Assembly: GCA_947454705.1 (NCBI GenBank) | Contig: CANGKZ010000039.1 | Span: 1-45,884 of the forward strand | Reading direction: 5' to 3' | Source: Verrucomicrobiota bacterium | GTDB lineage: Bacteria; Verrucomicrobiota; Verrucomicrobiia; Limisphaerales; UBA9464 | DNA: 45,884 nt | Shown here: positions 6,515-45,252 of the stretch, piece after piece | Position numbering within the stretch: the stretch's first letter is position 1 | Layout: each line of letters opens with the position of its first letter | Position numbers and translations under genes: made by a program | The notes under the pieces: generated by a model | What the model was told of the DNA's origin: nothing | Databases searched by the model: none | The model's input: only the letters and a program-made list of their open reading frames with translations

Positions 6515-6985
6515 TCAACGCAGCGGAGGTTTGCCATCGGGCGGAGGATCCTGCGGCGGGCGTTTGTCGCGCGAGTGATCCGAGGGAGATCCTCCGGGGC
6601 CGCCCGGTCCACTCCTAAACCGGCGCTCCCGATTGCTCTCGGCTTCGCGGAACTTCGCTTTCTGCTCCTCGGTGAGAATGGTTTCGATGCGCTCGCGGCC
6701 CTGCTTGATCATGGCCTGCATCTGCTTCATCTGGTCGCGATGCGAACGTTCCCAGTCGGCCATGTTCTGGCGGACGATGGGATCGAGCTGTTTCTGCTGC
6801 TCTTCGGTCAGGGAAAGCTCGCGAGTGTAGCGATCCTTGAGGTGCTGGAGCATCGAGTCCGGATTGGGCGGACGGAAAATGGGCTGGCGACCATAGCGAT
6901 AGCCGACCGCGCTTCCGGTGATCCCTCCGACGAGGAAGGTCCCGGCCAGATAGGCCAGCATTGCCGCTTTGGTCGGTGAACTCAT
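6515..6985 (-). CDS. Periplasmic LTxxQ-motif protein (CnrX/CpxP/Spy-like sensor)
   Basis: The 156-residue protein starts with an uncleaved-looking membrane anchor (MLAYLAGTFLVGGITGSAVGY, residues 9-29). A helical periplasmic part follows with two LTxxQ-type motifs (LSLTEEQQKQLDPIV and ILTEEQKAKFREAE), the hallmark of the Spy/CpxP/CnrX-type fold. The last 35 residues are a Pro/Gly/Arg/Asp-rich tail. Family members are chaperones or metal- and stress-sensing subunits. The gene follows an ECF sigma factor and a one-helix membrane protein with 4-base overlaps at both junctions. That places it where CnrX sits relative to CnrY and CnrH, so a sensor role is inferred. Metal binding is not shown: few His, no Cys. 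Confidence 0.8.
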   Translation of the reverse strand: MSSPTKAAMLAYLAGTFLVGGITGSAVGYRYGRQPIFRPPNPDSMLQHLKDRYTRELSLTEEQQKQLDPIVRQNMADWERSHRDQMKQMQAMIKQGRERIETILTEEQKAKFREAESNRERRFRSGPGGPGGSPSDHSRDKRPPQDPPPDGKPPLR

Positions 6986-7293
6986 TGCAGAAGAGCCAGG
7001 TTCGCGGTGGCGTTGGAAATGGCGTAGATGTCGTCGGGCTCACTCTGGTTGCCACTCCAGGTCAGGCTCACGGCGACCAGGGCGACGGCGCAGGCAATGC
7101 CCAGACCGTACCGAAGCAGGCGCAGACCGGCGGCGAAGTCCGAGACGCCACCGCGGCTTTGTCTCCAAGCGGCCATCACGCGGGTTTCGACGGCGAACGG
7201 CATTTCCGCCGGTGCGGTTTGGCGCGCGGCCGAGGCGTTGCGCAGCAGGCGGTCGAGCGCCTGATTCAAATCGGGTTCTTTTCGGGAATTCAT
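6982..7293 (-). CDS. Small single-helix membrane protein, probable anti-sigma factor
   Basis: The 103-residue protein has a charged cytoplasmic N-terminal half (DLNQALDRLLRNASAAR), one membrane helix at about 62-82 (LLRYGLGIACAVALVAVSLTW) and a short outer tail. No zinc anti-sigma HxxxCxxC motif is visible. Its start overlaps the sigma factor stop by four bases and its stop overlaps the LTxxQ gene start, so all three should be translated together. This position and topology match CnrY-type anti-sigma factors, which hold the sigma factor at the membrane. The function is inferred from context; the sequence alone would not identify it. Confidence 0.7.
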   Translation of the reverse strand: MNSRKEPDLNQALDRLLRNASAARQTAPAEMPFAVETRVMAAWRQSRGGVSDFAAGLRLLRYGLGIACAVALVAVSLTWSGNQSEPDDIYAISNATANLALLQ

Positions 7294-7877
7294 CGGGATC
7301 CCTCTTTCAACAGTTGTTCGAGATGCTTCTTCATCTTCCGTCGGGCTCGGAACGCCCGCACTTTAACCAGCGGAATGCTCCATCCGGTCACCTGCCTGAC
7401 CTCTTCCACACTGCGACCTTCGAGATGCAGCAGCGAGATGACCAACCGATCCGGCGCGCTGAGGTTGGCGAGCATCTTATCCACCAACTCCCGCGAGGCA
7501 AAGCTGTGTTCCGGCGCGAGATCCGCCGTGGTTGCAGCCAAATTCTGGATCACAGCCTCTTCGTCTTCGCTGAGATCCGCATGGCGCAGCTCCGGGCGGA
7601 TTTTCTCGTGCGAGAGCTGATTCAGGCAAGTGTTCACCGTAATGCGGGAAACCCAGTGTTCCAACGGCACCGCGCCGCTGAACTGGTCCAGCTTTGTAAA
7701 CACTTTGACGAAAACAGCCTGCACAAGATCTTCCTCTGCGGTGCGGCGGGGCAGGTGAGACCGGACTATCTTGAGGACGAGCGGCAGAAGGTGCTGATAA
7801 AGCGCCCTTGCTGCTGCATCATCTCCGCGCCGCGTGTTTTCGACGCACGCCTGCACGTCCAGTCCTGGTTCTTCCAT
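7290..7877 (-). CDS. ECF-type RNA polymerase sigma factor
   Basis: From the ATG at 7877 the protein has 195 residues. A longer form from a GTG at 7919 is possible but adds only non-conserved residues. Region 2 is visible as RALYQHLLPLVLKIVRSHL, EEDLVQAVFVKVFTKLDQF and HWVSRITVNTCLNQLSHEK. Region 4 is LSAPDRLVISLLHLEGRSVEEV with the helix-turn-helix and KVRAFRARRKMKKHL. A linker of about 50 residues joins them, and sigma regions 1 and 3 are missing, which defines the ECF group. It should direct RNA polymerase to a small regulon once the adjacent membrane protein releases it. Targets could include its own operon or the divergent outer-membrane protein gene at 8323, but I could not identify a matched promoter. 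Confidence 0.92.
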   Translation of the reverse strand: MEEPGLDVQACVENTRRGDDAAARALYQHLLPLVLKIVRSHLPRRTAEEDLVQAVFVKVFTKLDQFSGAVPLEHWVSRITVNTCLNQLSHEKIRPELRHADLSEDEEAVIQNLAATTADLAPEHSFASRELVDKMLANLSAPDRLVISLLHLEGRSVEEVRQVTGWSIPLVKVRAFRARRKMKKHLEQLLKEGSR

Positions 7878-8322
7878 GCCTCGTTCGGCCACATGTCTTG
7901 CTGAAGTGACCGGATCCACGCTCGGAGGTTACGGCGGAGACGATTCGATGGCGAACTTTCGTTGAGGCGGCTTCGATCGCTTCAAGCATGCGATCTTCGG
8001 ATTTCTCCAGCTTGATGGTTGAACGAGAGGTGACCCATTTTTGGAAAGGGTCGGTGAGGGAAGCTCGTTTCGGGGGAATTCCTACGTCAAAGGACTCCTT
8101 TTTGCCTCTCGCGAAGTGTTCAATCCGTCCTCGCTCCAACCAAGGTGATATTGACCTCGAATCTAAGGGCGAAAATGCAGAAAATCCTTAGTTTTTGGTG
8201 AGAATTGTCGATGAAAGCGGGAGCTCCAGTGAGGAGCTTTTCACCCATCGAACATCCTTGATCCATTGATTCCAGGCAGGGCTCGCACTACCCATCGGCC
8301 CCTGCCCGGAAAACCACTTCCC
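7878..8322. other. Divergent intergenic region, 445 bases, no supported gene
   Basis: This gap separates the minus-strand sigma operon from the plus-strand outer-membrane protein gene, so it should hold both promoters. Minus-strand frames over 7819-8139 are Arg/Ser/Thr-rich with no domain and overlap the sigma factor start, so I do not call them genes. I found no convincing -35/-10 pair or repeated ECF-type box by eye. Confidence 0.6.
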
Positions 8323-9186
8323 TTGAAATCCATTCTTCCCCTCGGTCTTTTCGCCACCGCCTTCCACCTCGGAGCCCTCGCTGCCGAACCTGAAGCCGCC
8401 GACAAATCGAAGTACAATTTGTTTAATCCGACCCCCGACGCGCTGATGCGCGACATGAGTCCGGATCGCCCTGACAAGACCGACAGTGCCAAGACCGTCG
8501 ATGCAGGGCATTTCCAGTGGGAGCTGGATTTCTTCAATTTCGGACGATTCAGCGACACCGACAACGGGGTCACCACCCGAACCGATGTGTATCAGGCTGC
8601 GCCGATGAACGTGAAAGTCGGCCTTCTGAATTCGGTCGATTTTCAGGTCCAATTCGCACCGTATTCCTGGGAGTTCGAACGCACCACCCCTCCGGGAACG
8701 GAGACCCGGGTGTCGGGATTTGGTGATGTCATGCCCCGTTTGAAGGTGAACCTCATGGGCAACGACGGCGGCGGATTTGCCATCGCGGCCATGCCGTTCG
8801 TTAAACTTCCGACCGGACGTCCCAATTTTGGAAATGGGTCGATCGAGGGCGGATTGAAGATTCCGTACTCCTTCGAAGTGCCGGGAATGGAGCTCAGCTT
8901 TCAAACCGAGATCGACTGGAACCGCGATGTGGTGGGAACTCGATACCACGCCGACATCGTCAATTCCGTCAGCGCCGGGCTTCCGGTCTGGGGAAAGCTT
9001 TCCTACTACGTCGAGGTGTTCACCGATGTAAGCACCGATCGGAACATCGGATTCATCTCCACCTTCGACACGTGGGTGACGTACTCGGTGAACAAGAACC
9101 TGCGCCTTGAGGCCGGTGTGTACATCGGTCTGACCAAGGCCTCGGAGCAGTTGCATCCGTTCATCGGTATGTCGTTCCGGTACTAA
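8323..9186 (+). CDS. Outer-membrane protein of the MetA-pathway (phenol_MetA_deg) type
   Basis: The protein begins in frame at a TTG at 8323. That start gives a good signal peptide (MKSILPLGLFATAFHLGALAAEP) and 287 residues. A TTG at 8266 would add a proline/arginine-rich leader in front of it. The mature part is rich in alternating aromatic strands (FQWELDFFNF, VDFQVQFAPYSWEF, LSYYVEVFTD, LRLEAGVYIGL) and ends in FRY, with a terminal aromatic as in beta-barrel proteins. The DALMRDMSPDRPDKTDSAKTV start and the strand pattern fit proteins annotated as the MetA-pathway of phenol degradation transporter family. A role in passage of small molecules across the outer membrane is inferred. It precedes the ABC locus by 210 bases and may not share its promoter. 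Confidence 0.72.
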   Translation: MKSILPLGLFATAFHLGALAAEPEAADKSKYNLFNPTPDALMRDMSPDRPDKTDSAKTVDAGHFQWELDFFNFGRFSDTDNGVTTRTDVYQAAPMNVKVGLLNSVDFQVQFAPYSWEFERTTPPGTETRVSGFGDVMPRLKVNLMGNDGGGFAIAAMPFVKLPTGRPNFGNGSIEGGLKIPYSFEVPGMELSFQTEIDWNRDVVGTRYHADIVNSVSAGLPVWGKLSYYVEVFTDVSTDRNIGFISTFDTWVTYSVNKNLRLEAGVYIGLTKASEQLHPFIGMSFRY

Positions 9187-9312: not shown

Positions 9313-9337
9313 GGGGATTTGCGATTCGCGAATCCCC
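9313..9337. promoter_or_regulatory. Strong hairpin upstream of the ABC locus
   Basis: GGGGATTTGCG, loop ATT, CGCGAATCCCC forms an 11-pair stem with one G-T pair. It lies 60 bases before the start codon at 9397. No T-run follows, so it is not a classical terminator for the gene ending at 9186. A weaker GC stem, GGGCGG with CCGCCC, lies just upstream near 9284-9304. It could act as an RNA element in the leader or as an operator. Confidence 0.55.
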
Positions 9338-9396: not shown

Positions 9397-11577
9397 ATGG
9401 ACCTCTTCCGACCGTTTCAGATCGGGCTCGCATTCCGACGCGGACTCATGGCGCTGGTCTTTCTTGCGCTTGCCGCTTCGTCCCCAGCGCGGGCCAAGAT
9501 CCAGTTCGATATTTTCCCCGGCTACGGCGACGTGGCCAGCGGCGTGGTGCGAGCCGGGGCGTGGTACCCGGTTGGTGTTGAGGTGTTGAACGACGGACCT
9601 GGATTCGATGCCGTCATCGAGCTTTCCGCCGGTCAATTCGGCGGCGCGGTGCAACGGGTGCCGATCGAGCTCCCCACCAACACCCGCAAGCGGTTCGTGG
9701 TTCCGTTTTTTTGCGCATCGTCGGGATTCCTGATGATCGATGCACGGTTGATGGAACGCGGCGGCAAACTCCGCGAAGACCGCCCGGGCAACCGGCTTCC
9801 GGTGATCCAATGGGAAACGCCGCTGCTCGGCGCGCTGCCCGGCAGTTATGGCGGGCTCCCCAGCTTTCCGACCCTTCCCAATCGAAACCAAAGCAGTGAC
9901 TGGCAGCCCTCGGTGGCTCGCCTCCAGGTGGATTTCGTTCCGGAGAATCCCATCGCGCTCGAAGGCCTCTCGGCATTGTACCTCAACACGGGCGAAGCAC
10001 TGAAACTCAAGGAACCCCAGGCCAACGCAATCGTCAGTTGGCTCAACCTGGGTGGACATTTGATTGTGTCGGTCGATCAAGCGGCGGACCTCGCGGCGCT
10101 TCCCTGGCTCGCGGAAATTCTTCCGGCCACGGTGGGCCAGGGCGACAACAAGCCCGCAGGCAAGGAACTCAATGCGTGGGTTCGCTCGCGTCACACGCCG
10201 GAGGTGAACGGCCTGAGTGTCCCGGTGGGACGCAACCGATCGGGCGCGTTTTCCGAGGATCCGTACTCGGCCGTGGCGGCGGACTTTGAGCTGGAGGTAG
10301 CCCCTCAGATGGTCCTCACGCTCACGCCCAAACTGGGTGCCTCGGTTCCCGCGCGAGTGGGAACGCTGCCCTTGTTGGCATCGCGTGCGACCGGACGCGG
10401 CCGGGTCACCGTTCTGGCGGTCAATCCGGAGCGCGAGCCCCTGCGGTCTTCGAAGATTCGTCCGTGGCTCTGGGCCCGCTTGTGCGATGTGCCGCATGAC
10501 CTCCTTCGTGGTCCCGCCTTCAATGCCTACGGCGGACGCAGCCTCGACGGGATTTTCGGCTCGATGATCGAGACCCGTCAGATCCGCAAGTTGCCGATCA
10601 CCTTCCTGCTGCTGTTGCTGGTGGTGTACCTCGTGGTGATCGGTCCGCTGGACCAGTGGATCCTCAAGAAGATCAACCGGCCCATGCTCACCTGGATCAC
10701 CTTTCCGGCATACGTGGTGCTGTTCTCCCTGTTGATCTATTTCATCGGATTCAAACTGCGCGCCGGGTTGACCGAATGGAACGAGCTTCACATCGTGGAC
10801 GTGCTCCCCATGGGCGACGGCACCCGCGCCTCGCTTCGCGGACACTCGTACGGAAGCGTGTATTCGCCGCGCAACGAGACCTATCACATCGCTGCCGCGA
10901 CCGAATTTGGTACCCTTCGCGGGGAGTTTCAGGGCCTCTGGGGCAATGGGGCCGACAATGGGCGCATCGCAGTTCAGCCGAAGGCGGCCGGGTTCGATGC
11001 CGAAGTCTTCGTACCGGTCTGGACCAGTCAGTTGACCGTGGCGGAATGGTCCGATCGCGGGGAGGCCCCGTTGATGGCGTCGTATTCGGGCAGCGGTGGA
11101 AAGGCCCTGCAGGTCACCAATCCCTCCGGACGCAAATACGGACCGGTCTGGGTGGTGGCCAATGGCATGGTTCAGGTGATTCAGTCCCTCGATTCCCACG
11201 GATCCGTGGACGTGGTGTTGAACCAGAATTTGGGCGAGCCGCTCGAATCGGTGGTCGCGCGTCGCAAGGCCGAGTTTCAAAACGTGTTCATGCGTCGCCA
11301 GGAAGTGTTCGGCAGCAGCGAGAAGAGCCACATCGATGATTGGGTGAACGCCTCGTTTGCCGCCTCGTTTGGTGGTCAGCTCACGCTCGAGAATGGCGAG
11401 GCGCGCGACTTTGTCTGGACCCCGGGATTCGACCTGTCCGCGCTGGCGCGACGTCCGGGAGCCATCGTGCTTGCCTGGGTTCCCGAGGGTTCCGTGATTC
11501 CTCCGCTGAGCCAGTTCCAACCGCGCCTCGGCAAAAAGGCCACACTGGTCCGTCTGGTGGTTCCCGCCGCGAATTGA
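9397..11577 (+). CDS. Large membrane-anchored protein with GATase-like periplasmic domain, ABC-locus partner
   Basis: I use the ATG at 9397 (726 residues) because a clean signal segment follows (RRGLMALVFLALAASSPARA). Residues up to about 390 are predicted outside the membrane and include LEGLSALYLNTGEALKL and ANAIVSWLNLGGHLIVSVD, which resemble the glutamine-amidotransferase-like fold seen in membrane proteins beside ABC exporters, such as GldG-type proteins. Two adjacent membrane helices follow at about 401-452 (LPITFLLLLLVVYLVVIGPLD and FPAYVVLFSLLIYFIGF), then a beta-rich C-terminal domain of about 270 residues. No catalytic cysteine triad is evident. It sits 28 bases before the ATPase gene. 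It probably works with that transporter as an accessory or substrate-handling subunit; this is inference from position. Confidence 0.7.
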   Translation: MDLFRPFQIGLAFRRGLMALVFLALAASSPARAKIQFDIFPGYGDVASGVVRAGAWYPVGVEVLNDGPGFDAVIELSAGQFGGAVQRVPIELPTNTRKRFVVPFFCASSGFLMIDARLMERGGKLREDRPGNRLPVIQWETPLLGALPGSYGGLPSFPTLPNRNQSSDWQPSVARLQVDFVPENPIALEGLSALYLNTGEALKLKEPQANAIVSWLNLGGHLIVSVDQAADLAALPWLAEILPATVGQGDNKPAGKELNAWVRSRHTPEVNGLSVPVGRNRSGAFSEDPYSAVAADFELEVAPQMVLTLTPKLGASVPARVGTLPLLASRATGRGRVTVLAVNPEREPLRSSKIRPWLWARLCDVPHDLLRGPAFNAYGGRSLDGIFGSMIETRQIRKLPITFLLLLLVVYLVVIGPLDQWILKKINRPMLTWITFPAYVVLFSLLIYFIGFKLRAGLTEWNELHIVDVLPMGDGTRASLRGHSYGSVYSPRNETYHIAAATEFGTLRGEFQGLWGNGADNGRIAVQPKAAGFDAEVFVPVWTSQLTVAEWSDRGEAPLMASYSGSGGKALQVTNPSGRKYGPVWVVANGMVQVIQSLDSHGSVDVVLNQNLGEPLESVVARRKAEFQNVFMRRQEVFGSSEKSHIDDWVNASFAASFGGQLTLENGEARDFVWTPGFDLSALARRPGAIVLAWVPEGSVIPPLSQFQPRLGKKATLVRLVVPAAN

Positions 11578-11605
11578 TCTGAACCGAGTTCGACCCGATT
11601 CTCCC

Positions 11606-12559
11606 ATGATTCCCCCCGTTCAAGAATCTCCCGCGGTCCAGACCAGCGACCTCGGCCGCTCCTACGGCGCCATGCAGGCGCTCACTGGGTTGAACCTCAC
11701 CGTCAACCGGGGGGACCTCTTCGGGTTCATCGGATCCAACGGCGCAGGCAAGACCACCACGCTGCGCATCCTCGCCACCTTCCTCACCCCCACCAGCGGC
11801 ACGGCCGAGGTGTTGGGGCATGATGTGGTGCGTCATGCCGACCGCGTCCGCCATCTCATCGGCTACATGCCGGACTTCTTTGGCGTGTACAAGGACATGG
11901 AGGTGACCGAGTACCTCGATTTCTTCGGCGCGTGCTACAAGATCCCTTCTGCCCAGCGGGAGAAAACCGTCGCCGACGTGCTCGAGCTGGTCGGGCTCAC
12001 GGAGAAAAAGGGCGCGCTCATCGGCGCACTCAGCCGCGGCATGCAGCAGCGCCTCGGCCTCGCACGCGTGTTGATTCACGATCCCCAATTGCTGCTCCTC
12101 GACGAACCGGCCAGCGGACTCGACCCGCGCGCCCGCATCGAAATGATGGCCATCCTCCAGGAGCTCCAGCGGCTCGGAAAAACCATCATCATTTCGTCGC
12201 ACATCCTTTCGGAGCTGCAAACGCTGTGCAATCGCTGCGCCATCATTGAGAAGGGACGCCTGATCTACAGCGGACCAATCCGCGGCGCGCAGACCCAACT
12301 CGTCGATGCCAAGGCCTTCTGGGTTCGCGTGGGCGGCCCGGCGGCGGCTGCCCGGGATTTGCTCCTCGCTCGGCCCGAGGCGTCCCGCGTCGAAATTCAG
12401 GAAGATCGCATCAAGGTCGTGCTCGCGGATCCCGCGGGGGATGGTGGCTTCATCGCCGAAACGCTCGTCACCGCCGGCCAGCGCGTGCTGGAAATGCGGG
12501 AGGATGAAATCGGACTCGAGGAAGTCTTCCTGCGCGTCACCCGCGGCGAAACCCAGTAA
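11606..12559 (+). CDS. ABC transporter ATP-binding protein (ABC-2 / CcmA-type)
   Basis: The 317-residue ATPase carries every nucleotide-binding motif: Walker A GSNGAGKTTT (about 43-52), a Q-loop region around IGYMPDFFGVYKDMEVTEYL, the signature LSRGMQQRLGLARVL, Walker B LLLLDEPASGLDPRAR and the switch histidine in SSHILSELQTL. The signature is LSRGM in place of LSGGQ, as is frequent in ABC-2 ATPases. The C-terminal 80 residues are the extra domain common in drug- and Nat-type exporters. It is the only ATPase in the locus and is followed by four permease genes after a 163-base gap, so it probably energises them. Substrate and direction are unknown, though ABC-2 systems usually export. Confidence 0.93.
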   Translation: MIPPVQESPAVQTSDLGRSYGAMQALTGLNLTVNRGDLFGFIGSNGAGKTTTLRILATFLTPTSGTAEVLGHDVVRHADRVRHLIGYMPDFFGVYKDMEVTEYLDFFGACYKIPSAQREKTVADVLELVGLTEKKGALIGALSRGMQQRLGLARVLIHDPQLLLLDEPASGLDPRARIEMMAILQELQRLGKTIIISSHILSELQTLCNRCAIIEKGRLIYSGPIRGAQTQLVDAKAFWVRVGGPAAAARDLLLARPEASRVEIQEDRIKVVLADPAGDGGFIAETLVTAGQRVLEMREDEIGLEEVFLRVTRGETQ

Positions 12560-12691
12560 CCCGGGCAGGGTTCGTCCGGAATCTCCGGCGCCGCCCCGCC
12601 TCCGGCGCATGGAGTGATCGGATTGAGCGGGTTGATCTGAGTGTCTCTGAGAATCAAAAAAGATACCCCTTGTTTCCGGGCCCCGTCGCTC

Positions 12692-12720
12692 GTTGTTGTT
12701 GTCATTATCGTTGTCGTCGT
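12692..12720. repeat. GTT/GTC trinucleotide-rich tract
   Basis: GTTGTTGTTGTCATTATCG then TTGTCGTCGT runs straight up to the permease 1 start codon at 12723. Reverse-strand frames over it give an Asp/Asn repeat, which is an artefact. Because it occupies the ribosome-binding region of permease 1, it might influence translation, but no Shine-Dalgarno sequence is seen. Confidence 0.7.
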
Positions 12721-12722
12721 CC

Positions 12723-14369
12723 ATGTGGCCACTGCTCCTGCGCGAACTGCGACTCGAAGCCCGTCGGCCCTATAACCGCTGGCTGCGGGTGGGATCGGCG
12801 CTGCTGTTTTTTCTGGTCCTGATCGGCGCCCTTCGACAGCCGGTTCCGCTGCATCAGCTCTGTCGCACGCTGTTTCCGATCCTGCATTCCATGCTCCTGG
12901 CCCTGCCTTGGTGTGTGGCACCGACGCTGGTGGCGGAAGTGATCGCGCGCGAGCGCCGCACCGGGATGCTGGAGCAGCTCCAGCTGACGCGGGTCACCTG
13001 GGGCGCGATCGTCCGGTCCATCACCGTCGCCATCACCGCTCGCACGATCACGCTCATGCTGGCCGCTTTTCCGGTGGTGACGCTTACCGTGCTCTTCGGC
13101 GGCGTGGGAATCGCCGAGCTCCGGATGTCCGCGCTGCTGCAAGCGCTGTCGCTGATTCAAGCGTTGTCGGTGGCGTTGCTCGCTGGCGCCCTGGGACGCA
13201 GCTGGGCCACTTCGATGCTTTGGGCCACGGCGCTCGGAGCGGTCTGGGGCGGGGGAGCTTCCTGGGCGATTTTCATGAAGTTTCAATGGTCGGTGGCCCT
13301 GCCGTATGCGCCCGGTGTGTGGCCCCTTCCGGAGACCTCCGCAGGGCACGCGGTCGAGTGGATCCGGTTTCTGTCGAACCGAGGATCTGTCTGGAGTCCC
13401 ACCTTCGCGGTGGTGCCCCTGCGCGTGGTGGATCGCTGGTGGAACTATCTTCAGGCGGTGATCGGTCTGACCCTTGGAATGCATGTGGTGGCGGGAATGG
13501 TAGCCGCTTTGGTGTTGCGGCGCGGGATGAGCGATGCGGCCAACCGGGCGATGACCCGCGAGGACGCATTTGCCCTCCCCGGGTTGCCACGGGCGGTTTC
13601 GCCCGAGGTCCGCCGACGCTGGCTTCAGGGAAATCCGGTGCGTTGGTTGATGCGTTATCCCGGCGAAGTACGATGGATCCGCGTGACCGCCGCCGGAGCG
13701 CTGCTGGGGATCGAACTCGGGGTGTTTGCGCTCCCGCTTTCGTTCGAAGTTTGGTTTCTCGTGCAAACTCTGTTGCTCGGCCTGCTCAGCACTTCGCTGG
13801 CGCTGATTGCGGCCGACAGTTACCGGCGCGAGCGGGAGAATGGGGCGTTGGAAATGTTGATGGTCACGCCGCTGCGTCCGCGCGATCTGGGGCGGGGGCG
13901 CATCGGTGGATTGTGGTGGATGCTCGGCCCGGCGTACCTGATTTGGGCGGCCTCGATCTGGCTGGGTGTTCCCATTCTGCGCACCGGGGACGATCATCTC
14001 GCGCTGTTCTTTTGGGGAATGGCGCTCGCAGCCGCGATCCCGGTGGTCGGACTGGAAGCCGCGTTCCAATTTCGAGGCTACTGGCGTTCGGCGCTCGCCA
14101 CACTGGGTCTGACCTGCGGACTCAGTGGCGGTTTGTTCTGGATGGGGGTCGCGGAAGATGCGGTGTTCTGGGTGACCCCGTTGTCCCTGCTGGTTCTCGG
14201 AGTCGTCGCGGCGCTGAACTTTCCCGGTTTTGAACAAAGATTCTCCCGGAATCGCAACGGGGAGACGCCGCAAAGCCGCCGCCTTCATCCCGAGCCGGTG
14301 GATTCGCCCTACACCCGGGTCATCCGTGAACGGGGGCCCCGGCCGTTGCCGAAAATTCCTCATTCCTGA
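12723..14369 (+). CDS. ABC-2 type permease 1 (internally duplicated)
   Basis: The start is the ATG at 12723 (548 residues, MWPLLLRELRLEARRP); the start is aligned with the paralogues, which all begin with a short REL-containing segment. About twelve hydrophobic segments are visible. Two copies of an amphipathic motif stand out: ARERRTGMLEQLQLTRV near residue 77 and RRERENGALEMLMVTPL near residue 368, about 291 residues apart, each just after a hydrophobic segment. This suggests two fused ABC-2 half-permeases in one chain. Of the four paralogues it is the most diverged in the first motif. It is presumed to form the membrane channel with the ATPase at 11606; a long 163-base gap with a trinucleotide tract separates the two genes. 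Confidence 0.82.
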   Translation: MWPLLLRELRLEARRPYNRWLRVGSALLFFLVLIGALRQPVPLHQLCRTLFPILHSMLLALPWCVAPTLVAEVIARERRTGMLEQLQLTRVTWGAIVRSITVAITARTITLMLAAFPVVTLTVLFGGVGIAELRMSALLQALSLIQALSVALLAGALGRSWATSMLWATALGAVWGGGASWAIFMKFQWSVALPYAPGVWPLPETSAGHAVEWIRFLSNRGSVWSPTFAVVPLRVVDRWWNYLQAVIGLTLGMHVVAGMVAALVLRRGMSDAANRAMTREDAFALPGLPRAVSPEVRRRWLQGNPVRWLMRYPGEVRWIRVTAAGALLGIELGVFALPLSFEVWFLVQTLLLGLLSTSLALIAADSYRRERENGALEMLMVTPLRPRDLGRGRIGGLWWMLGPAYLIWAASIWLGVPILRTGDDHLALFFWGMALAAAIPVVGLEAAFQFRGYWRSALATLGLTCGLSGGLFWMGVAEDAVFWVTPLSLLVLGVVAALNFPGFEQRFSRNRNGETPQSRRLHPEPVDSPYTRVIRERGPRPLPKIPHS

Positions 14370-14441
14370 TCCCGGGCCAGTGCCGCCATCGGCGAAGGTC
14401 TGCGGCCTTGCAAGTTGCCGGGGAAGTCTTGGAATGCGTCG

Positions 14442-16022
14442 GTGTGGTCGATCGTCAGCCGTGAATTGAGGGTCCAGGCGCGCCAGCCTTCGAGCGCGAT
14501 GCTGCGATCGCTCGGCGCCGCTGCCGTGCTGGTGGCGTTCGCCATCGGATGGAATCTGCAGGTGATGCAGTTTCAATCCGATGGACGCGGATTGTTCACG
14601 TTGATGAATCACGTGATGATCGTGCTCATCTGGCTGGTGGCCCCGGTGCTCACGGCCGATTGCATCAGCCGCGAACGTCGCGAGGGCACGCTCGGTCTTC
14701 TCTTTCTCACTCCCTTGCGTGCGATCGATGTGGTGATCGGCAAGGCGTTCGCCCACGCCTGGCGCGCGTTCACGGTCGTGCTGGCGTCGATCCCGGTTCT
14801 TGCGCTTCCGATCATGCTCGGCGGGCTCACCGTCTGGGACGTGATGCGGATGCTCCTGCTGCATCTCGCGGTGCTGGGGCTTTCGCTCACCGCGGGGCTT
14901 CTGGCATCGTCATGGGCCAACACTTGGGTTCGCGCGCGCTTGCTCGCGTTCGGGCTTGCGGTGGGGGCGGGGATTTCATTCGCAGCAATCTACTGCGCGT
15001 TTTCCGCGGTTCACCACTGGCAGATGCTCCAGCGACTGCAGCCGGGATTGCAGTTTCATCAGGCATGGCTGGGGCAGATGTGGGGTTGGCGCGCGCGGCT
15101 CGGTCTCGCATCCCCGGATCAAATGGGTGGCGCGGCCTCGTTCTGGATGCCGATCCCCGGATCGGGCGGGAATCCCGCCTCGGTGTGGCTCGCGTTCAAG
15201 GTGCTCCTCGCCGCCCTCGCGCTCGTCGGTTTTGCCGTGGCAATCGCATCGAATTCGGTAAGCAACTCCTGGCTCCCCGCGGAGGCGTCGTTGTTTTCGC
15301 GGTGGCTTCACCTCGATTCAGGATCGATCCGGGCGACGCAAGCTCGGCGCGGGCAGCGAAACCGCGCGCTGGATTCAAACCCGGTTCGCTGGCTTCAGAC
15401 TCGAACCTGGTCGGGGCGTTGGGTTCGATGGGGATGGCTCGGATTGGGGGCTGTCGCGGCCTCCGGGCTGCTGGGTCCGCAGGCGACGCCGCTGGTGCTG
15501 ATGTGTGGTGTGGTGGCGGCGATCGGTTATGGGGCGTGCATCAGCTTCCGTCGGGAGCGCGAGGAGGGGGCTCTTGAATTGTGGCTGGTCACCGAACTCA
15601 CCCCGGAGCGAATCCTCACGGGTCGCCTGCTGGGCCTCGCAAATCAGTTTTTTCCGGTGATGGTGATGGTCTCATTCTTGATTCCGTTGAGGCTGATGCC
15701 GAGCGCGCCGGGGGCAATGCCCTGGGTGGTGGTTGTTTCGTCGTGGTTTGCCTGGCTCGGCTGGCTCGCCGGTGCCGTGGGACTCGGTCTGCTTGTTTCC
15801 ATGCTTTCCCGTCCCCGTGCCTGGCAGGCGCTGGCAGTGGCTCAGATACCCGCCCTGCAGATGTTCGCGGTGCAATCGTTGTGTGACCAGGCGGGCCCAG
15901 TCCGGCCGGGAATGGCGGTCTGGGCCGCGCTGGCGGTGGTCCTCGGCGGAGCGCTTCTTTTCGTCCATGGCTTCCGTACGGCTCGGCACCAGTTGCAGCA
16001 TCGGTGTTTTCTTGGTCCCTGA
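14442..16022 (+). CDS. ABC-2 type permease 2 (internally duplicated)
   Basis: I place the start at the GTG at 14442 (526 residues, MWSIVSRELRVQARQ) because it aligns with the N-termini of the neighbouring paralogues. A TTG at 14415 would add nine residues. The first amphipathic motif is SRERREGTLGLLFLTPL near residue 76 and the second is RREREEGALELWLVTEL near residue 370, so the spacing is again about 293. Around them lie some twelve hydrophobic helices. The first motif is nearly identical to that of permeases 3 and 4. It should be an integral inner-membrane subunit of the same transporter. A cluster of Arg-rich residues (RATQARRGQRNRALDSN) forms the loop before the second half. Confidence 0.82.
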   Translation: MWSIVSRELRVQARQPSSAMLRSLGAAAVLVAFAIGWNLQVMQFQSDGRGLFTLMNHVMIVLIWLVAPVLTADCISRERREGTLGLLFLTPLRAIDVVIGKAFAHAWRAFTVVLASIPVLALPIMLGGLTVWDVMRMLLLHLAVLGLSLTAGLLASSWANTWVRARLLAFGLAVGAGISFAAIYCAFSAVHHWQMLQRLQPGLQFHQAWLGQMWGWRARLGLASPDQMGGAASFWMPIPGSGGNPASVWLAFKVLLAALALVGFAVAIASNSVSNSWLPAEASLFSRWLHLDSGSIRATQARRGQRNRALDSNPVRWLQTRTWSGRWVRWGWLGLGAVAASGLLGPQATPLVLMCGVVAAIGYGACISFRREREEGALELWLVTELTPERILTGRLLGLANQFFPVMVMVSFLIPLRLMPSAPGAMPWVVVVSSWFAWLGWLAGAVGLGLLVSMLSRPRAWQALAVAQIPALQMFAVQSLCDQAGPVRPGMAVWAALAVVLGGALLFVHGFRTARHQLQHRCFLGP

Positions 16023-16076
16023 GCTGACTTGTGGCTTGATGCGCCCGGAGGCTTTTCCAACGATGCACCGCACGCC

Positions 16077-17765
16077 ATGACCCTGTTTCCTGTCGTCGAA
16101 CGCGAACTCCGGGTGTCTTCGCGCCGTTCATGGACTTACTGGGGGCGCTCGGTCTCCGGATTGCTGGCGTTGCTCATCACTGGTTGGATTCTGGCGCTGC
16201 AATCCATCGTCCAGGTTCGCACCACCGGACAGGCCCTGTTCAGCTCCATTTCCGTGCTCGCACTCCTCGTGTCCTCGATGGCCGGGGTGACCTACACCTC
16301 CGATTGCATCAGTTCTGAAAAACGCGAAGGCACGCTCGGGTTGCTGTTCCTTACCGACCTCAAGGGATTCGATGTCGCTCTGGGAAAGCTCACAGCGACC
16401 TCACTCGGAGCATTCTACGGGCTTCTGGCACTGCTGCCGGTGATGTCGATGGGCCTTCTTCTCGGTGGCGTCACGGGTGGGGAATACCTGCGGATGGTCC
16501 TGGTGCTCATTTCGACGTTGTTGCTCTCGCTCTCCATCGGACTCGCGGTTTCGGTCGTCAGCCGCGACGCGCTGCGCTCGGCGATGTCGTCGTTCGTGTT
16601 GATTCTCGCCGTGTTTTTCCTGATGCCGGTGGGCGGCATGCTGTTGGGCGATCTGTTGGATTACTGGGCGAAATCGGACAATCGGATCCGGAACTCGTTG
16701 GAGCATTCGATTGGATGGATGACTCCGCTCTTCGCCTACTCCCAGGTGGCCGATGCGGAGTTCAAAAAGAATCCGTCGTTGTTTTGGAAAGCCGAGGCGT
16801 GGATCGGCGGGCTGGCTCTGGTGGTGTTGGTTTTTGCGAGCCTGCGACTGCCCCGAAGCTGGCAGGACAAGCGGACCGGCACCGCGAATGGAGGCTGGCG
16901 TGCGTGGCTCGATGCGTTGCGGTTCTCCTCGGTGGAATCCCGCCTCCAGACCCGGCGCACCTGGCTGGATCACAATCCCGGTGCGTGGTTGTCCACCCGG
17001 TACTGGCTGCGGTCGGCTTCCGTGTGGGCCATGCTTTTTCTCCTCGTTCTCGGCTTCGCGTACGGGGGCTGGCGCGCGGGAAGCGGTTGGTGGAATACGG
17101 GAATCTATCTCGCCTCTTCCATTCTCCTGCACCTGATTCTCAAGGTCTGGATCGCCAACGAAGCCCCACGCCAGTTCATCGAAGATCGTAGGACCGGTGC
17201 GCTGGAGCTCCTGCTCACCACGGCGTTCGATGTGCCGGAACTTCTCGCCGGACGCCGCATCGCACTCATGCGGCAGTTCGGCGCGCCGATCGCGATCGCG
17301 CTGCTGTTTGATGCGATCTTCCTGATTTCGTCGCTCCGGGTGGAAATCTCCGGCAGCGATGAACAGCTCATGTGGACCTTCCTGTGGCTGCTCCGGATGC
17401 TGTTCCTTCCACTGGATGCGGTGACCCTGTTCTGGCTGGGAATGTGGAAGGGGATGACCGGGACCGGAAGCCGCGCGGCCTCCGGCGTGGTGGGACTCGG
17501 GCTCGCGCTTCCGGTGGTGGCGACGCTGATTCTCTACACATTCCTCGGGATGGCATCGGTGGCGGGACAAACCAGCTGGGTGACTCCGATGCTTCTGCTC
17601 TGCATCTGGGCCGTGATTTGTGGATTGAACTCCTTCATCTGGATCTCCCGGTCGCGTCGGATCGTGGTGAACCAATTTCGGGAGCTGGCCCATCATCGTC
17701 CCGATGGCCGGGCATCGTGGTGGTCCCGTTTGTGGAAACGTTCCAAGGCGGGTAGTGTGGCTTAG
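16077..17765 (+). CDS. ABC-2 type permease 3 (internally duplicated)
   Basis: The start is the ATG at 16077 (562 residues, MTLFPVVERELRVSSRR). The earlier in-frame start at 16029 adds a segment with no family counterpart. Motif one is SSEKREGTLGLLFLTDL near residue 78 and motif two is EDRRTGALELLLTTAF near residue 369. Both follow a hydrophobic helix and are 291 residues apart. The central loop (RRTWLDHNPGAWLSTRYWL) matches a comparable basic, Pro-containing linker in permeases 1 and 2 (NPVRWL), which marks the boundary between the two halves. The gene begins 54 bases after permease 2, consistent with co-transcription. Function within the transporter is inferred from family and position. Confidence 0.82.
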   Translation: MTLFPVVERELRVSSRRSWTYWGRSVSGLLALLITGWILALQSIVQVRTTGQALFSSISVLALLVSSMAGVTYTSDCISSEKREGTLGLLFLTDLKGFDVALGKLTATSLGAFYGLLALLPVMSMGLLLGGVTGGEYLRMVLVLISTLLLSLSIGLAVSVVSRDALRSAMSSFVLILAVFFLMPVGGMLLGDLLDYWAKSDNRIRNSLEHSIGWMTPLFAYSQVADAEFKKNPSLFWKAEAWIGGLALVVLVFASLRLPRSWQDKRTGTANGGWRAWLDALRFSSVESRLQTRRTWLDHNPGAWLSTRYWLRSASVWAMLFLLVLGFAYGGWRAGSGWWNTGIYLASSILLHLILKVWIANEAPRQFIEDRRTGALELLLTTAFDVPELLAGRRIALMRQFGAPIAIALLFDAIFLISSLRVEISGSDEQLMWTFLWLLRMLFLPLDAVTLFWLGMWKGMTGTGSRAASGVVGLGLALPVVATLILYTFLGMASVAGQTSWVTPMLLLCIWAVICGLNSFIWISRSRRIVVNQFRELAHHRPDGRASWWSRLWKRSKAGSVA

Positions 17766-17805
17766 CCCCCACCGTTGATCTTCGCCGATTAAGCCGAGCT
17801 GCCGA

Positions 17806-19515
17806 ATGAATCCCGTATTTACCCTCATCGGACGGGAACTCCTGAGCGCGAGCCGCAAGCCGGCCACCTGGCGTGCCCGAATTTCAGTGGCGGCCATGGG
17901 AATCCTCGGAGCGTTGGCCCTGGTGGGAATGTCAGGCTCCGCTCCGGTGGCACCGAATGCGATGGGGGCCCAAATGTTTCTTCAGCTGACCCTCGCCGGC
18001 GGGCTCTCCGCCCTCGGCCTTGGGGTGATGCTGACCTCGGATTCGATCAGCTCGGAGCGACGCGAGGGAACGCTGGGGCTGCTCTTTCTGACCGACCTTT
18101 CCGGTTGGAGCGTGGTTCTGGGCAAGGCCGGGGCTGCGGTGGCGGGATCGGCGTATGCGCTGATGTCCATGCTCCCGATTTTTGCCATCGGCTTACTCCT
18201 CGGAGGCGTGACGCTTGAGCAGGTCGGCATGCTCGCTGCGTCGCTGCTTAACACGTTGTTTGTTTCCACTTCAGTCTCCGTGTGGGTCTCGACCTGGTGC
18301 ACCAAGCCCCGTCAGGCCGCGGGGCTTTCCGCGTTGTCGTTGTTTGCGCTCTCCTCGATTCCGCTGGGGGCAATGTTCTGGCTGGGCAGCAATTCGCCGG
18401 TGACTGGATTGCCAATCGAAGCCGCGCTGGCCGCGATGATCAGTCCGGTCCTGCCGCTGGCGCTGTCGGTCATGCCTCGCGGATCTGTGGGAGGCATCTC
18501 CTTCGTTCCCTCCGGCATCCTGCCCCTTGATCTCTGGGCGTGGTTCCTGGCCGGGCTCGTGGTGCAGCAGGGAATCGCGTGGGCGTTGCTCGGCTGGGCC
18601 GCAGCGAGAACGCGCACCGTCTGGCAGGACGCGCCGGTGCGAAAGTTTTCGGTTCAGCTGAAGAATCTCTGGAGCCACTGGACCCACGGTTCCGCCCCGG
18701 CCCGACGCGCGCTGCGGGAGAAACTGCTGGATCGCTCCTCCTACCTCTGGCTTTCGCAGCGCGAAATCTGGAAACCGTACCATCCCTGGATTCTGCTCGG
18801 GGCTTTGGGACTGCTGCTGGTCTGGCAGGAGTTCGTCATGCACCTGCCGTGGCGGCTGGATGAATGGATCCTTCCCATGGCCATGTCGGCTCAGATTCTG
18901 TTTTGCATTTGGATCATCACCGAGTCGGCCGCGCGTCTGGTGGAGGAACGTCACTCGGGATCGTTCGAGCTGCTGCTGTGCACGCCGCTGGATCGAGACG
19001 CAATCCTGCACGGCCAGTGGCTCGCGCTTCGGCGCATGTTCCTGCTTCCCATGTTGCTACTGCTCGGGGTGGACCTGTGGCTGATCTGCAACGAACGCGG
19101 CCCGGGCTGGGTCTTTCCGCCCAATCTTCCAAGTTTTCTACAACGATTTGTCCTCGGCATGCTGGTGTCGCTGCCTGCGGTTCGATGGGTCGCCACGCTG
19201 CTCGCGCTGCAGGGTCATACGATCCAGGCGCTCAGCTCGCGCACCATGTTTACGGTCTGGTTTGCGCCTGCGGCCCTTGCCCACGCCTTTGCCTGGATTT
19301 GTGAAATCCTGCGGACCCAGCTGGCCATCGGCGGGCTCCTGCCGGTGGAGTTTTGGGGTGGCCTGCTGATCTTTTGCGCAGGCGCGTGGATCACCGGAAG
19401 GCGCGCAAGGGAGCGGGTGCGACTCGAATTCCGCGAACTTGCCACGCAGACCAAATCACCTCGAACCGCAGGCGATTCGAAACCGAGGCCGATGCGACCT
19501 GCGAGGGGCGGTTGA
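17806..19515 (+). CDS. ABC-2 type permease 4 (internally duplicated)
   Basis: The 569-residue protein starts at the ATG at 17806 (MNPVFTLIGRELLSASRKP), 40 bases after permease 3. The first amphipathic motif is SSERREGTLGLLFLTDL near residue 82 and the second is VEERHSGSFELLLCTPL near residue 379. About twelve hydrophobic segments surround them. Motif one matches permease 3 at all but one position, which suggests recent duplication or strong constraint. The last 35 residues are basic and Pro-rich (TKSPRTAGDSKPRPMRPARGG) and should be cytoplasmic. The stop codon TGA at 19513-19515 falls within the first bases of a dispersed TTGAAG-rich repeat, so that repeat may have set the present C-terminus. 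Confidence 0.82.
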   Translation: MNPVFTLIGRELLSASRKPATWRARISVAAMGILGALALVGMSGSAPVAPNAMGAQMFLQLTLAGGLSALGLGVMLTSDSISSERREGTLGLLFLTDLSGWSVVLGKAGAAVAGSAYALMSMLPIFAIGLLLGGVTLEQVGMLAASLLNTLFVSTSVSVWVSTWCTKPRQAAGLSALSLFALSSIPLGAMFWLGSNSPVTGLPIEAALAAMISPVLPLALSVMPRGSVGGISFVPSGILPLDLWAWFLAGLVVQQGIAWALLGWAAARTRTVWQDAPVRKFSVQLKNLWSHWTHGSAPARRALREKLLDRSSYLWLSQREIWKPYHPWILLGALGLLLVWQEFVMHLPWRLDEWILPMAMSAQILFCIWIITESAARLVEERHSGSFELLLCTPLDRDAILHGQWLALRRMFLLPMLLLLGVDLWLICNERGPGWVFPPNLPSFLQRFVLGMLVSLPAVRWVATLLALQGHTIQALSSRTMFTVWFAPAALAHAFAWICEILRTQLAIGGLLPVEFWGGLLIFCAGAWITGRRARERVRLEFRELATQTKSPRTAGDSKPRPMRPARGG

Positions 19516-43527: not shown

Positions 43528-44271
43528 ATGATTGAAGTTCGAAATGTCACCAAGCGCTTTGGCACCCAGGAGGTGCTCAAGGGCGCGTCCCTGCGCATTG
43601 ATCGCGGGGAGGCGGTGGTGATCATCGGTCGAAGCGGCGGAGGAAAAAGCGTTCTCCTCAAGCACCTCGTTGCGCTGCTTCAGCCCGATTCCGGGCAGGT
43701 TCTGGTGGATGGACAAAATCTCTGCGCGCTCACCGAACGCGAGCTGCTCCGGGTGCGACGCAAGTTCGGCATGCTGTTTCAGGGAGCGGCATTGTTCGAT
43801 TCCCTGACCGTGTTTGAAAATGTGGCCTTCGTTCTCGAACGTGAACGCACCCACACCCCGGCCGAAATCAAACGTCTTGTCGCCGAAGCGCTGGAATGGG
43901 TCGAACTCCCGGGCATCGAAAACAAAAAACCCGCGGAACTCTCCGGCGGCATGCGCAAACGCGTGGGTCTGGCCCGGGCGATTGTGTATCGACCGGAAAT
44001 TTTGCTCTACGACGAACCCACCACCGGATTGGATCCTGTGGCCGGGGCCAACATCGATGGATTGATCCGTCGGGTGTGGGAGAAACTCAACGTCACCAGC
44101 ATCGCCGTGACCCACGACATGCCGAGCGCCCGGCGCATCAGCAACCGGATCCTGATGTTGCGCGACGGAGTAATTTACGCGGACGGACCGACGAACGACA
44201 TCCTGTCCTCAACCGACCCGGTGGTGAACCACTTCGTGAACGGCATCCCCTCGGGCAAGACGACTTTTTAA
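43528..44271 (+). CDS. mlaF: MlaF-family ABC transporter ATP-binding protein
   Basis: The 247-residue ATPase has Walker A GRSGGGKSV (34-42), a signature LSGGMRKRVGLARAI, Walker B ILLYDEPTTGLDPVAG and the switch histidine in VTHDMPSARRISNRI. The FRKFGMLFQGAALFDSLTVFENVAF stretch is the Q-loop region typical of MlaF. It energises MlaE for phospholipid movement across the envelope together with the MCE-domain protein encoded six bases downstream. The gene starts at the ATG at 43528 with no Shine-Dalgarno and lies 66 bases after mlaE. Confidence 0.96.
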   Translation: MIEVRNVTKRFGTQEVLKGASLRIDRGEAVVIIGRSGGGKSVLLKHLVALLQPDSGQVLVDGQNLCALTERELLRVRRKFGMLFQGAALFDSLTVFENVAFVLERERTHTPAEIKRLVAEALEWVELPGIENKKPAELSGGMRKRVGLARAIVYRPEILLYDEPTTGLDPVAGANIDGLIRRVWEKLNVTSIAVTHDMPSARRISNRILMLRDGVIYADGPTNDILSSTDPVVNHFVNGIPSGKTTF

Positions 44272-44277
44272 CTCCCC

Positions 44278-45252
44278 ATGGAAAATTCCCGCAACGCGAC
44301 GAAAGTCGGGTTCTTTGTTTTGGTGGCGCTCATTCTCATCGCGCTCCTGCTGGTCAATTTCAGCAAGGGCCGCGGCCTCTTCACGCCCAGTTATCTCGTT
44401 TATGTGGGCTCCGAGAATGTCGGCGGATTGAAGGCCGGCGCCTCGGTGCTCATGTCCGGCGTGCCGGTCGGGTCGGTGGACTCCATCGATCTCACCAAAG
44501 ACGGCCGCTCCGTGGTGATCACCACCCGAATTCTCAAGCAGTTCGCCATCCATCGCGATGCGCGGTTTGAAATCGAGCAGAGCGGATTCCTCGGCGACCA
44601 GTTCGTATCGATCGTCGCCGGCAAGAACGAGGAGCCCATGCTGAAGGACGGCGACCGCATCGTGGCCCAGCAGCCGTTCAACATTCAGGAAGCCGCCCGA
44701 TCGGCCATGGGGCTGATGTCGAAGCTCGATGCCGCTCTTATTCGCATCAACGGCGCAGTCGATCGCGTGGACCGCACCCTGCTGAACGAAGTGGTGCTGA
44801 CCAACCTCTCGGCCAGCGCGGTAAACATCCGATCCGTTTCAACCCGGGCCGATGCGCTGGTGACCGAAGCTCAGGCACTCGTGCATTCCCAGTCGCCGGT
44901 GATTGCATCGGCGATCAGCAACTTCAACACGCTCTCCTTCACACTTGTAGGCGTGAGTTCGAATCTGAATGTCACGCTGGATGCCGCGCGGCCCGAAGTG
45001 GTCTCGGTTCTGCACAACGCCTCCGAGGCGGTTCAGGAGATCAAGACCATCGCCGGAGATCTTCAAGCGGGCCACGGGGTGGCTGGTGCGCTGTTGAAGG
45101 ATGAAGCCATGCGGTTGCAGTTCGGATCGGCCGTCACCAACCTCAACATTGTGAGCAGCAACCTCGCGCGCTTCGGCATTCTCTACACGCCGAAGCAGCC
45201 CAAGCGGCTGACCAACGACGTGCGTTACACCGGCCGCGGCGCGGGGCGATGA
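44278..45252 (+). CDS. mlaD: MlaD-like MCE-domain substrate-binding protein
   Basis: The 324-residue protein starts at an ATG six bases after mlaF. It has an N-terminal membrane helix (KVGFFVLVALILIALLLVNFS, residues 9-29). The MCE domain follows at about 38-120: YVGSENVGGLKAGASVLMSGVPVGSVDSIDL and IHRDARFEIEQSGFLGDQFVSIVAG. After it comes a helical C-terminal region (about 135-300) rich in Asn, Ser and Val with coiled-coil-like character, and a GHGVAGALLKDEAMRLQF segment typical of longer MCE proteins. MCE rings bind lipids between MlaFE and periplasmic carriers. The C-terminal extension suggests a bridge-like form longer than the E. coli MlaD of about 180 residues. Confidence 0.94.
   Translation: MENSRNATKVGFFVLVALILIALLLVNFSKGRGLFTPSYLVYVGSENVGGLKAGASVLMSGVPVGSVDSIDLTKDGRSVVITTRILKQFAIHRDARFEIEQSGFLGDQFVSIVAGKNEEPMLKDGDRIVAQQPFNIQEAARSAMGLMSKLDAALIRINGAVDRVDRTLLNEVVLTNLSASAVNIRSVSTRADALVTEAQALVHSQSPVIASAISNFNTLSFTLVGVSSNLNVTLDAARPEVVSVLHNASEAVQEIKTIAGDLQAGHGVAGALLKDEAMRLQFGSAVTNLNIVSSNLARFGILYTPKQPKRLTNDVRYTGRGAGR

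Follow-up and report, generated by a model that had tools for sequence, protein, structure and literature searches.

ATPases described as serving more than one ATP-binding cassette (ABC) transporter include MsmX, MsmK and MsiK as well as Mkl, which is also called MceG. Such multitask ATPases were described as "rather uncommon" in 2020, when they had been reported exclusively for CUT1 sugar importers (PMC7658222). Mkl of the Actinomycetales mce operons is unlinked, and its sharing was inferred from a motif in a permease loop together with the phylogenetic profile (PMC1810536). Here we analyse a stretch of 45,884 nucleotides, hereafter the window, from a Verrucomicrobiota bacterium of the order Limisphaerales and the family UBA9464 (GenBank assembly GCA_947454705.1, contig CANGKZ010000039.1), which is the entire contig and belongs to a parent genome of 5.45 Mb in 80 contigs. 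It carries a locus for a GATase-like membrane protein (GAT), a single ABC ATPase and four adjacent permeases, P1 to P4 (Table 1). This locus is real, conserved and lineage-specific, and it is probably part of a multitask, hub-and-spoke ABC-2 exporter in which one ATPase together with GAT serves interchangeable permeases.

In its arrangement, the locus resembles the CUT1 multitask ATPases MsmX, MsmK and MsiK, with which one ATPase energizes several permease systems without an ATPase gene of their own (PMC7658222); permease sets without an adjacent ATPase of their own are also found here, where the sharing itself is predicted from genomic evidence. The CUT1 systems, however, are type I importers with binding proteins, whereas the present system combines ABC-2-fold single-chain permeases with a GATase-like partner. 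Membership of the CUT1 importers was rejected, as the permeases are ABC-2 and not type I importer transmembrane domains (TMDs), and downstream of GAT the ORFs (open reading frames) of the array encode only the ATPase and permeases. With mce/Mkl the system has in common the kind of evidence, profile and permease motif, that speaks for one shared ATPase, but mce/Mkl is an importer with YrbE and Mce proteins, and a GATase-like subunit is not described in the available part of that report (PMC1810536). An exporter with a shared ATPase of this kind was not found among the papers listed from the open-licence PMC literature, which does not show its absence from print. We rate at slightly better than even the chance that this is the first multitask ABC exporter, order-wide, with one ATPase and one GATase-like protein powering from two to at least 17 interchangeable, independently encoded single-chain permeases.

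Sequence comparison and structural models establish, at their own level, a fixed core in single copy, variable and dispersed permeases, a duplicated full-TMD fold and a common coupling motif. The core ATPase matches ABC_tran (PF00005, E 9.5e-29) and has complete motifs (Walker A GSNGAGKT, signature LSRGMQ, Walker B LLLLDEP, H-loop SH). Counted at E<=1e-100, it has exactly one match per positive genome, with 30 of 50 family genomes and 160 of 293 genomes of the order being positive. The loci compared were 80 named core loci, the best of 124 confirmed, with titles such as Verrucomicrobia, Pedosphaera, Limisphaerales and similar ones. The ATPase comes next after GAT in 75 of them, and in the remaining five the DNA ends 2-334 nt past GAT; the median gap between the two genes is 75 nt (one negative value is an artefact of merged matches). 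Three of the surveyed loci (L085, L091 and L114) are titled Akkermansia muciniphila, yet match the system of the order, and are probably mis-titled metagenome-assembled genomes. Searches among family genomes recovered relatives of GAT, of P1 and of all six proteins, and the six-gene set is therefore not a product of chance. Outside the order, GAT gave weak partial matches in 7 of 387 phylum genomes besides the window's own (at most two candidates scored per genome).

The permeases that follow this core vary in number. In 47 loci with a visible array end, in which the permease number was estimated from the matched length, 0, 1, 2, 3 and 4 permeases follow in 21, 9, 3, 7 and 7 loci, respectively, and the largest arrays hold six (genome G042) and five (G038). 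Synteny among relatives, which a preliminary description of the window had made a touchstone of its proposal, is thus strict for GAT and the ATPase and supports the claim, and it is not kept for the permeases, which counts against it. The same description had proposed that the permeases could assemble either as alternative channels on a single ATPase or as one hetero-oligomer of all four, and the second assembly, here extended to a single machine with the ATPase and GAT, we regard as very unlikely. The one-strand tandem order with short gaps would suit such a machine, and arrays of four occur after the core in G005, too, and in the 7 loci counted above. The array size of 0 to 6 and a membership that differs between relatives nevertheless argue against it, since four is not conserved as a number. 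A promoter and terminator scan for a single transcript returned one promoter-like site, on the minus strand (1.5 expected), and 15 terminator-like sites (11.6 expected, standard deviation 3.3).

In the 21 loci without an adjoining permease, the core ATPase must either work in trans or be idle. Divergent permeases hidden behind these empty arrays were considered and rejected: a simple hydropathy scan of stop-to-stop ORFs found none of the 21 with a same-strand ORF of at least four transmembrane (TM) segments within 1.5 kb after the ATPase, and the window, used as positive control, has one.

The permeases themselves are diverse, with 29% (P2), 25% (P3) and 23% (P4) identity to P1. P2, P3 and P4 lie at or above the cut-off of ABC2_membrane_2 (PF12679), P3 barely so (27.2 vs 27.2 bits). 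With an ABC-2 membrane domain, below threshold in P1, and complete ATPase motifs, the sequences fit an ABC-2 type (NosY/DrrB-like) exporter, export itself being predicted. P3, the sole permease modelled, was predicted with AlphaFold2 from 64 family permeases (predicted local distance difference test, pLDDT, 91.1; predicted template modelling score 0.87), and the model has twelve long helices and two putative coupling helices at residues 77-91 and 375-381. The N- and C-terminal halves of the permeases are homologous (hhalign of the 64-row alignment, 94.3%, E 1.8e-8; five column-shuffled controls, 0.0-0.1%). Each permease, being a duplicated full TMD, should therefore form a complete channel and not a part of a four-permease hetero-oligomer, as a single chain already contains both TMD halves. 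Two homologous halves with coupling helices would likewise provide two ATPase docking sites per permease.

Fold comparison places the P3 model close to characterized exporters. Its whole chain (model residues 1-541) matches a mycobacterial single-chain efflux pump (8k1o_A) over 442 residues (Z 17.6, root-mean-square deviation (rmsd) 4.5, 10% identity), and further fold matches are to ABCG TMDs. The entries 8k1n, 8k1o and 8k1p, which we take to be Rv1217c-Rv1218c, share with P3 the single-chain permease and the overall fold, and the permeases correspond to this 12-TM type in carrying both TMD halves in one chain. The mycobacterial pump has its own adjacent ATPase and is not known to include a GAT, and NosFY/NosDFY likewise has a dedicated ATPase. 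NosY forms a half-size chain of its own (246-275 residues in its entries), and it is the N-half of P3 that matches it (7o12_E; Z 20.9, rmsd 3.4, 242 residues). A DrrA/GldA-like ATPase, an ABC-2 permease and an extra membrane protein also recall GldA, GldF and GldG, which are said to form, in all likelihood, an ABC transporter (PMC5682007). At 240 positions, however, the GldF model is half-size, unlike the full-TMD permeases here, and membership was rejected both for the ATPase as GldA (TIGR03522, 230.9 bits vs a cut-off of 402.6) and for the permeases as GldF (TIGR03518, best 41.4 bits, for P2, vs 288.5).

Both coupling segments are visible in the alignment of P1 to P4. In core-linked permeases (55 rows) as in detached ones (99 rows), the most conserved 12-residue window is the N-terminal coupling helix, with the common consensus ERREGTLGLLFLT. 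The N segment carries a mean information of 3.45 bits, against 2.71 bits for the C segment and 1.44 bits elsewhere. In a quick tree, in which 36 of 149 inner forks are open, the P1 clade is restricted, P2-related permeases are both core-linked and detached, and relatives of P4 are paired with P3, with or without the ATPase. Such P3/P4 pairs belong to core-linked arrays in G005, G038 and the window and lie apart from the core in G042 (L204) and others.

The detached permeases comprise 82 family loci, among the matches listed, with permeases away from the core, forming 82 clusters. Of these clusters, 41 are flanked on each side by 2 kb or more, and only two of them (L164 and L185) have an ABC ATPase within 2 kb; in four genomes that comprise 1, 1, 40 and 50 contigs, none of 15 well-flanked clusters does (16 of 20 loci). 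Two one-contig genomes illustrate the arrangement. In G529, the core lies at 1.69 Mb, where the 20 kb fetched contain no permease, and an intact permease pair lies at 2.97 Mb, 1.28 Mb from the core, where the 20 kb fetched contain no ATPase; a third permease at 0.10 Mb contains internal stops. In G504, one core ATPase is encoded with GAT at 2.445 Mb, and a very large expansion of at least 17 permease segments of at least 134 bits extends across the chromosome (L218-L226), the nearest about 47 kb from the core. By the simple hydropathy scan, no same-strand ORF of at least four TM segments follows the core ATPase in either genome, and each of the other nine ATPases (E<=1e-40) is adjoined or overlapped by such an ORF on its own strand. 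That the detached permeases are relics or ATP-independent membrane proteins rather than transporters appears the most improbable of the alternatives. Stops do occur inside the third permease of G529 and a few others, but most of the matches listed are open frames without stops, and the N coupling segment of the detached permeases is kept at 3.52 bits per position. Identical permease pairs in two species genomes (L180, 554-3828, in G043 and L182, 735-4009, in G044) reflect transfer or a binning error.

Co-occurrence was counted in the 50 family and 293 order genomes. In the family, 30 genomes have both the core ATPase and permeases, none the ATPase only, 6 permeases only and 14 neither; in the order, the corresponding numbers are 152, 8, 16 and 117. 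All 14 family genomes with neither are members of genus g7. Of the 19 genomes of this genus, 3 have the core, 4 have strong permeases and 16 have MlaF, used as control, and because of this presence of MlaF the absence is not explained by missing data alone.

Several observations weigh against a common ATPase, and they bear mostly on the alternative that the core ATPase serves only adjoining permeases while the detached ones use other, unlinked ATPases, which we consider unlikely. Family genomes hold 47 to 104 ABC-ATPase candidates each at first look, and permeases occur without the core ATPase in 16 of the 293 order genomes and in six of the 50 family genomes (G009, G029 (weak), G030, G037 (93% completeness), G045 and G046), in which a lower threshold revealed only relatives of 32-39% identity. 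Order and family counts alike ignore relatedness, and for the order about 4 or 7 candidates were scored per genome. At the edge of a contig, L066 (1176-3493) has a P1-like permease directly followed, at 213 nt, by a different ABC ATPase (163 bits to the core), possibly a switch to a dedicated ATPase; the preliminary description had named pairing with ATPases elsewhere as evidence against its proposal, and this was encountered in this one case. An ATPase lies 576 nt from the permease match in L164 and at 1,652 nt in L185, 41 of the 82 detached clusters lack 2 kb on both sides, and three loci counted as detached (L032, L205 and L207) are probably core-array pieces split by contig or fetch ends. 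Among the 21 loci counted as empty, L113 carries three permeases of the family, some 4.2 kb further along. P1, with the divergent N-terminal motif GMLEQLQLT, and the L066 permease deviate from the common coupling motif. Motifs of the common kind (GTFETLMTTP, GTMELLLTMP and GTLELLFTMP) occur next to three of the nine other ATPases in G529 and G504. Since ABC-2 permeases in general have conserved coupling helices, the shared motif can be called consistent with sharing and nothing stronger. Finally, unusual conservation of a hub ATPase was considered and rejected: the core ATPase, at 72-91% identity within the family, covers the same range as the MlaF control at 71-90%, and no special hub constraint is therefore visible. 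Against exclusive use of adjoining permeases stand the 21 core loci with no permease next to the ATPase, the membrane ORF adjacent to each of the nine other closest ATPases in the one-contig genomes, and the clades and coupling motif common to core-linked and detached permeases.

In the multitask exporter that we favour, the shared core would be the single-copy ATPase encoded with GAT. Each permease would consist of two fused ABC-2 half-permeases and have two coupling helices, and docking of the ATPase homodimer on one permease, whether encoded beside the ATPase, as the four in the window, or elsewhere, would yield a complete transporter, with one permease per ATPase dimer and GAT in each complex. 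Different permeases, presumably differing in their substrates, would compete for the one ATPase, and the exported substrates may be envelope or hydrophobic compounds. The preliminary description is thus partly supported: its six genes were confirmed in place, and its alternative channels using one ATPase agree with the variable arrays, with permeases of the same clades elsewhere without an ATPase and with the duplicated full TMD, the proposal now extending far beyond the window.

GAT is most likely a non-catalytic envelope subunit shared by these complexes. Its model (AlphaFold2 from a 22-sequence alignment, pLDDT 83.5) predicts a helix at residues 7-27, a beta region at 35-147 and a Rossmann-like/GATase1-like domain at about 140-365, then a two-helix hairpin (401-426 and 429-455), read as TM, and a C-terminal beta region. 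In the model, residues 140-365 match STM3548 (2gk3_E, Z 16.2), and for residues 143-366 the match is a Planctomyces limnophilus protein that is GATase1-like (3rht_A, Z 14.0); this bears out the GATase-like label that the protein had been given. The other label, GldG-like, holds as a loose resemblance only: GAT has no NCBIfam match at E<=1, and thus no GldG match, and in Pfam only a sub-threshold match to DUF4350 (E 0.0034). No invariant Cys or His was found in the 22-sequence alignment. The positive-inside rule is well established, and as the hairpin loop reads KKINRP, both large domains are predicted to be periplasmic.

Table 1. Features of the window, listed by position.
Feature	Position	Strand	Remarks
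ECF (extracytoplasmic function) sigma factor, next small ORF and Metal_resist/LTXXQ-like protein	6515-7919	-	Upstream, divergent; latter two sub-threshold
Phenol_MetA_deg-type protein	8266-9186	+	Just before GAT; not among the conserved upstream clusters shown
GAT	9397-11577	+	726 amino acids (aa) from ATG 9397; alternative longer TTG start at 9319
ABC ATPase	11606-12559	+	317 aa; DrrA/GldA-like; Pfam and NCBIfam
Permease P1	12723-14369	+	548 aa; ABC-2 Pfam matches sub-threshold only (E 0.0014, 0.0016)
Permease P2	14415-16022	+	535 aa (TTG 14415) or 526 aa (GTG 14442); PF12679 E 4.8e-16, two stretches
Permease P3	16077-17765	+	562 aa; AlphaFold2 model; twelve long helices
Permease P4	17806-19515	+	569 aa; PF12679 E 2.6e-13, two stretches
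ABC ATPase and MlaD-domain gene (MlaFD-like)	43528-45252	+	MlaF control; ATPase matches in 44/50 family genomes

Genes neighbouring the core differ between loci. An LptD-like outer-membrane gene directly precedes GAT in 7 of the 80 loci (L096, L100, L103, L131, L141, L143 and L144; called by Pfam for L096 and by phmmer for the others; 6 of 63 among loci with more than 2.5 kb upstream) and was rejected as a general upstream partner on this count; as a neighbour it hints at envelope work and no more. ORFs similar to the sigma-factor cluster of the window lie near the core in eight loci, the window included, and this cluster was rejected as a general partner on the same grounds. Neighbours of the detached permeases were also considered as a clue to substrates, and none is common to the 24-locus C4 group, in which the neighbour clusters are mostly opposite-strand shadow ORFs; a poly(A)-polymerase-like gene (Pfam on one) follows in 4 of the 24 loci, and common neighbours occur within some sets of close relatives. 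A plasmid search with P4 gave no match, and neither did Rfam.

If the sharing of one ATPase is confirmed, a lineage could widen or narrow its range of export functions through the acquisition or loss of nothing but permease genes. The system would then be an exporter-side counterpart to CUT1 sharing whose core occurs in 160 of the 293 genomes sampled from one order, and the annotation of orphan ABC permeases would change accordingly. Its permeases would also provide a natural set from which ATPase recognition may be learned, and would open up the envelope biology of a little-cultured group.

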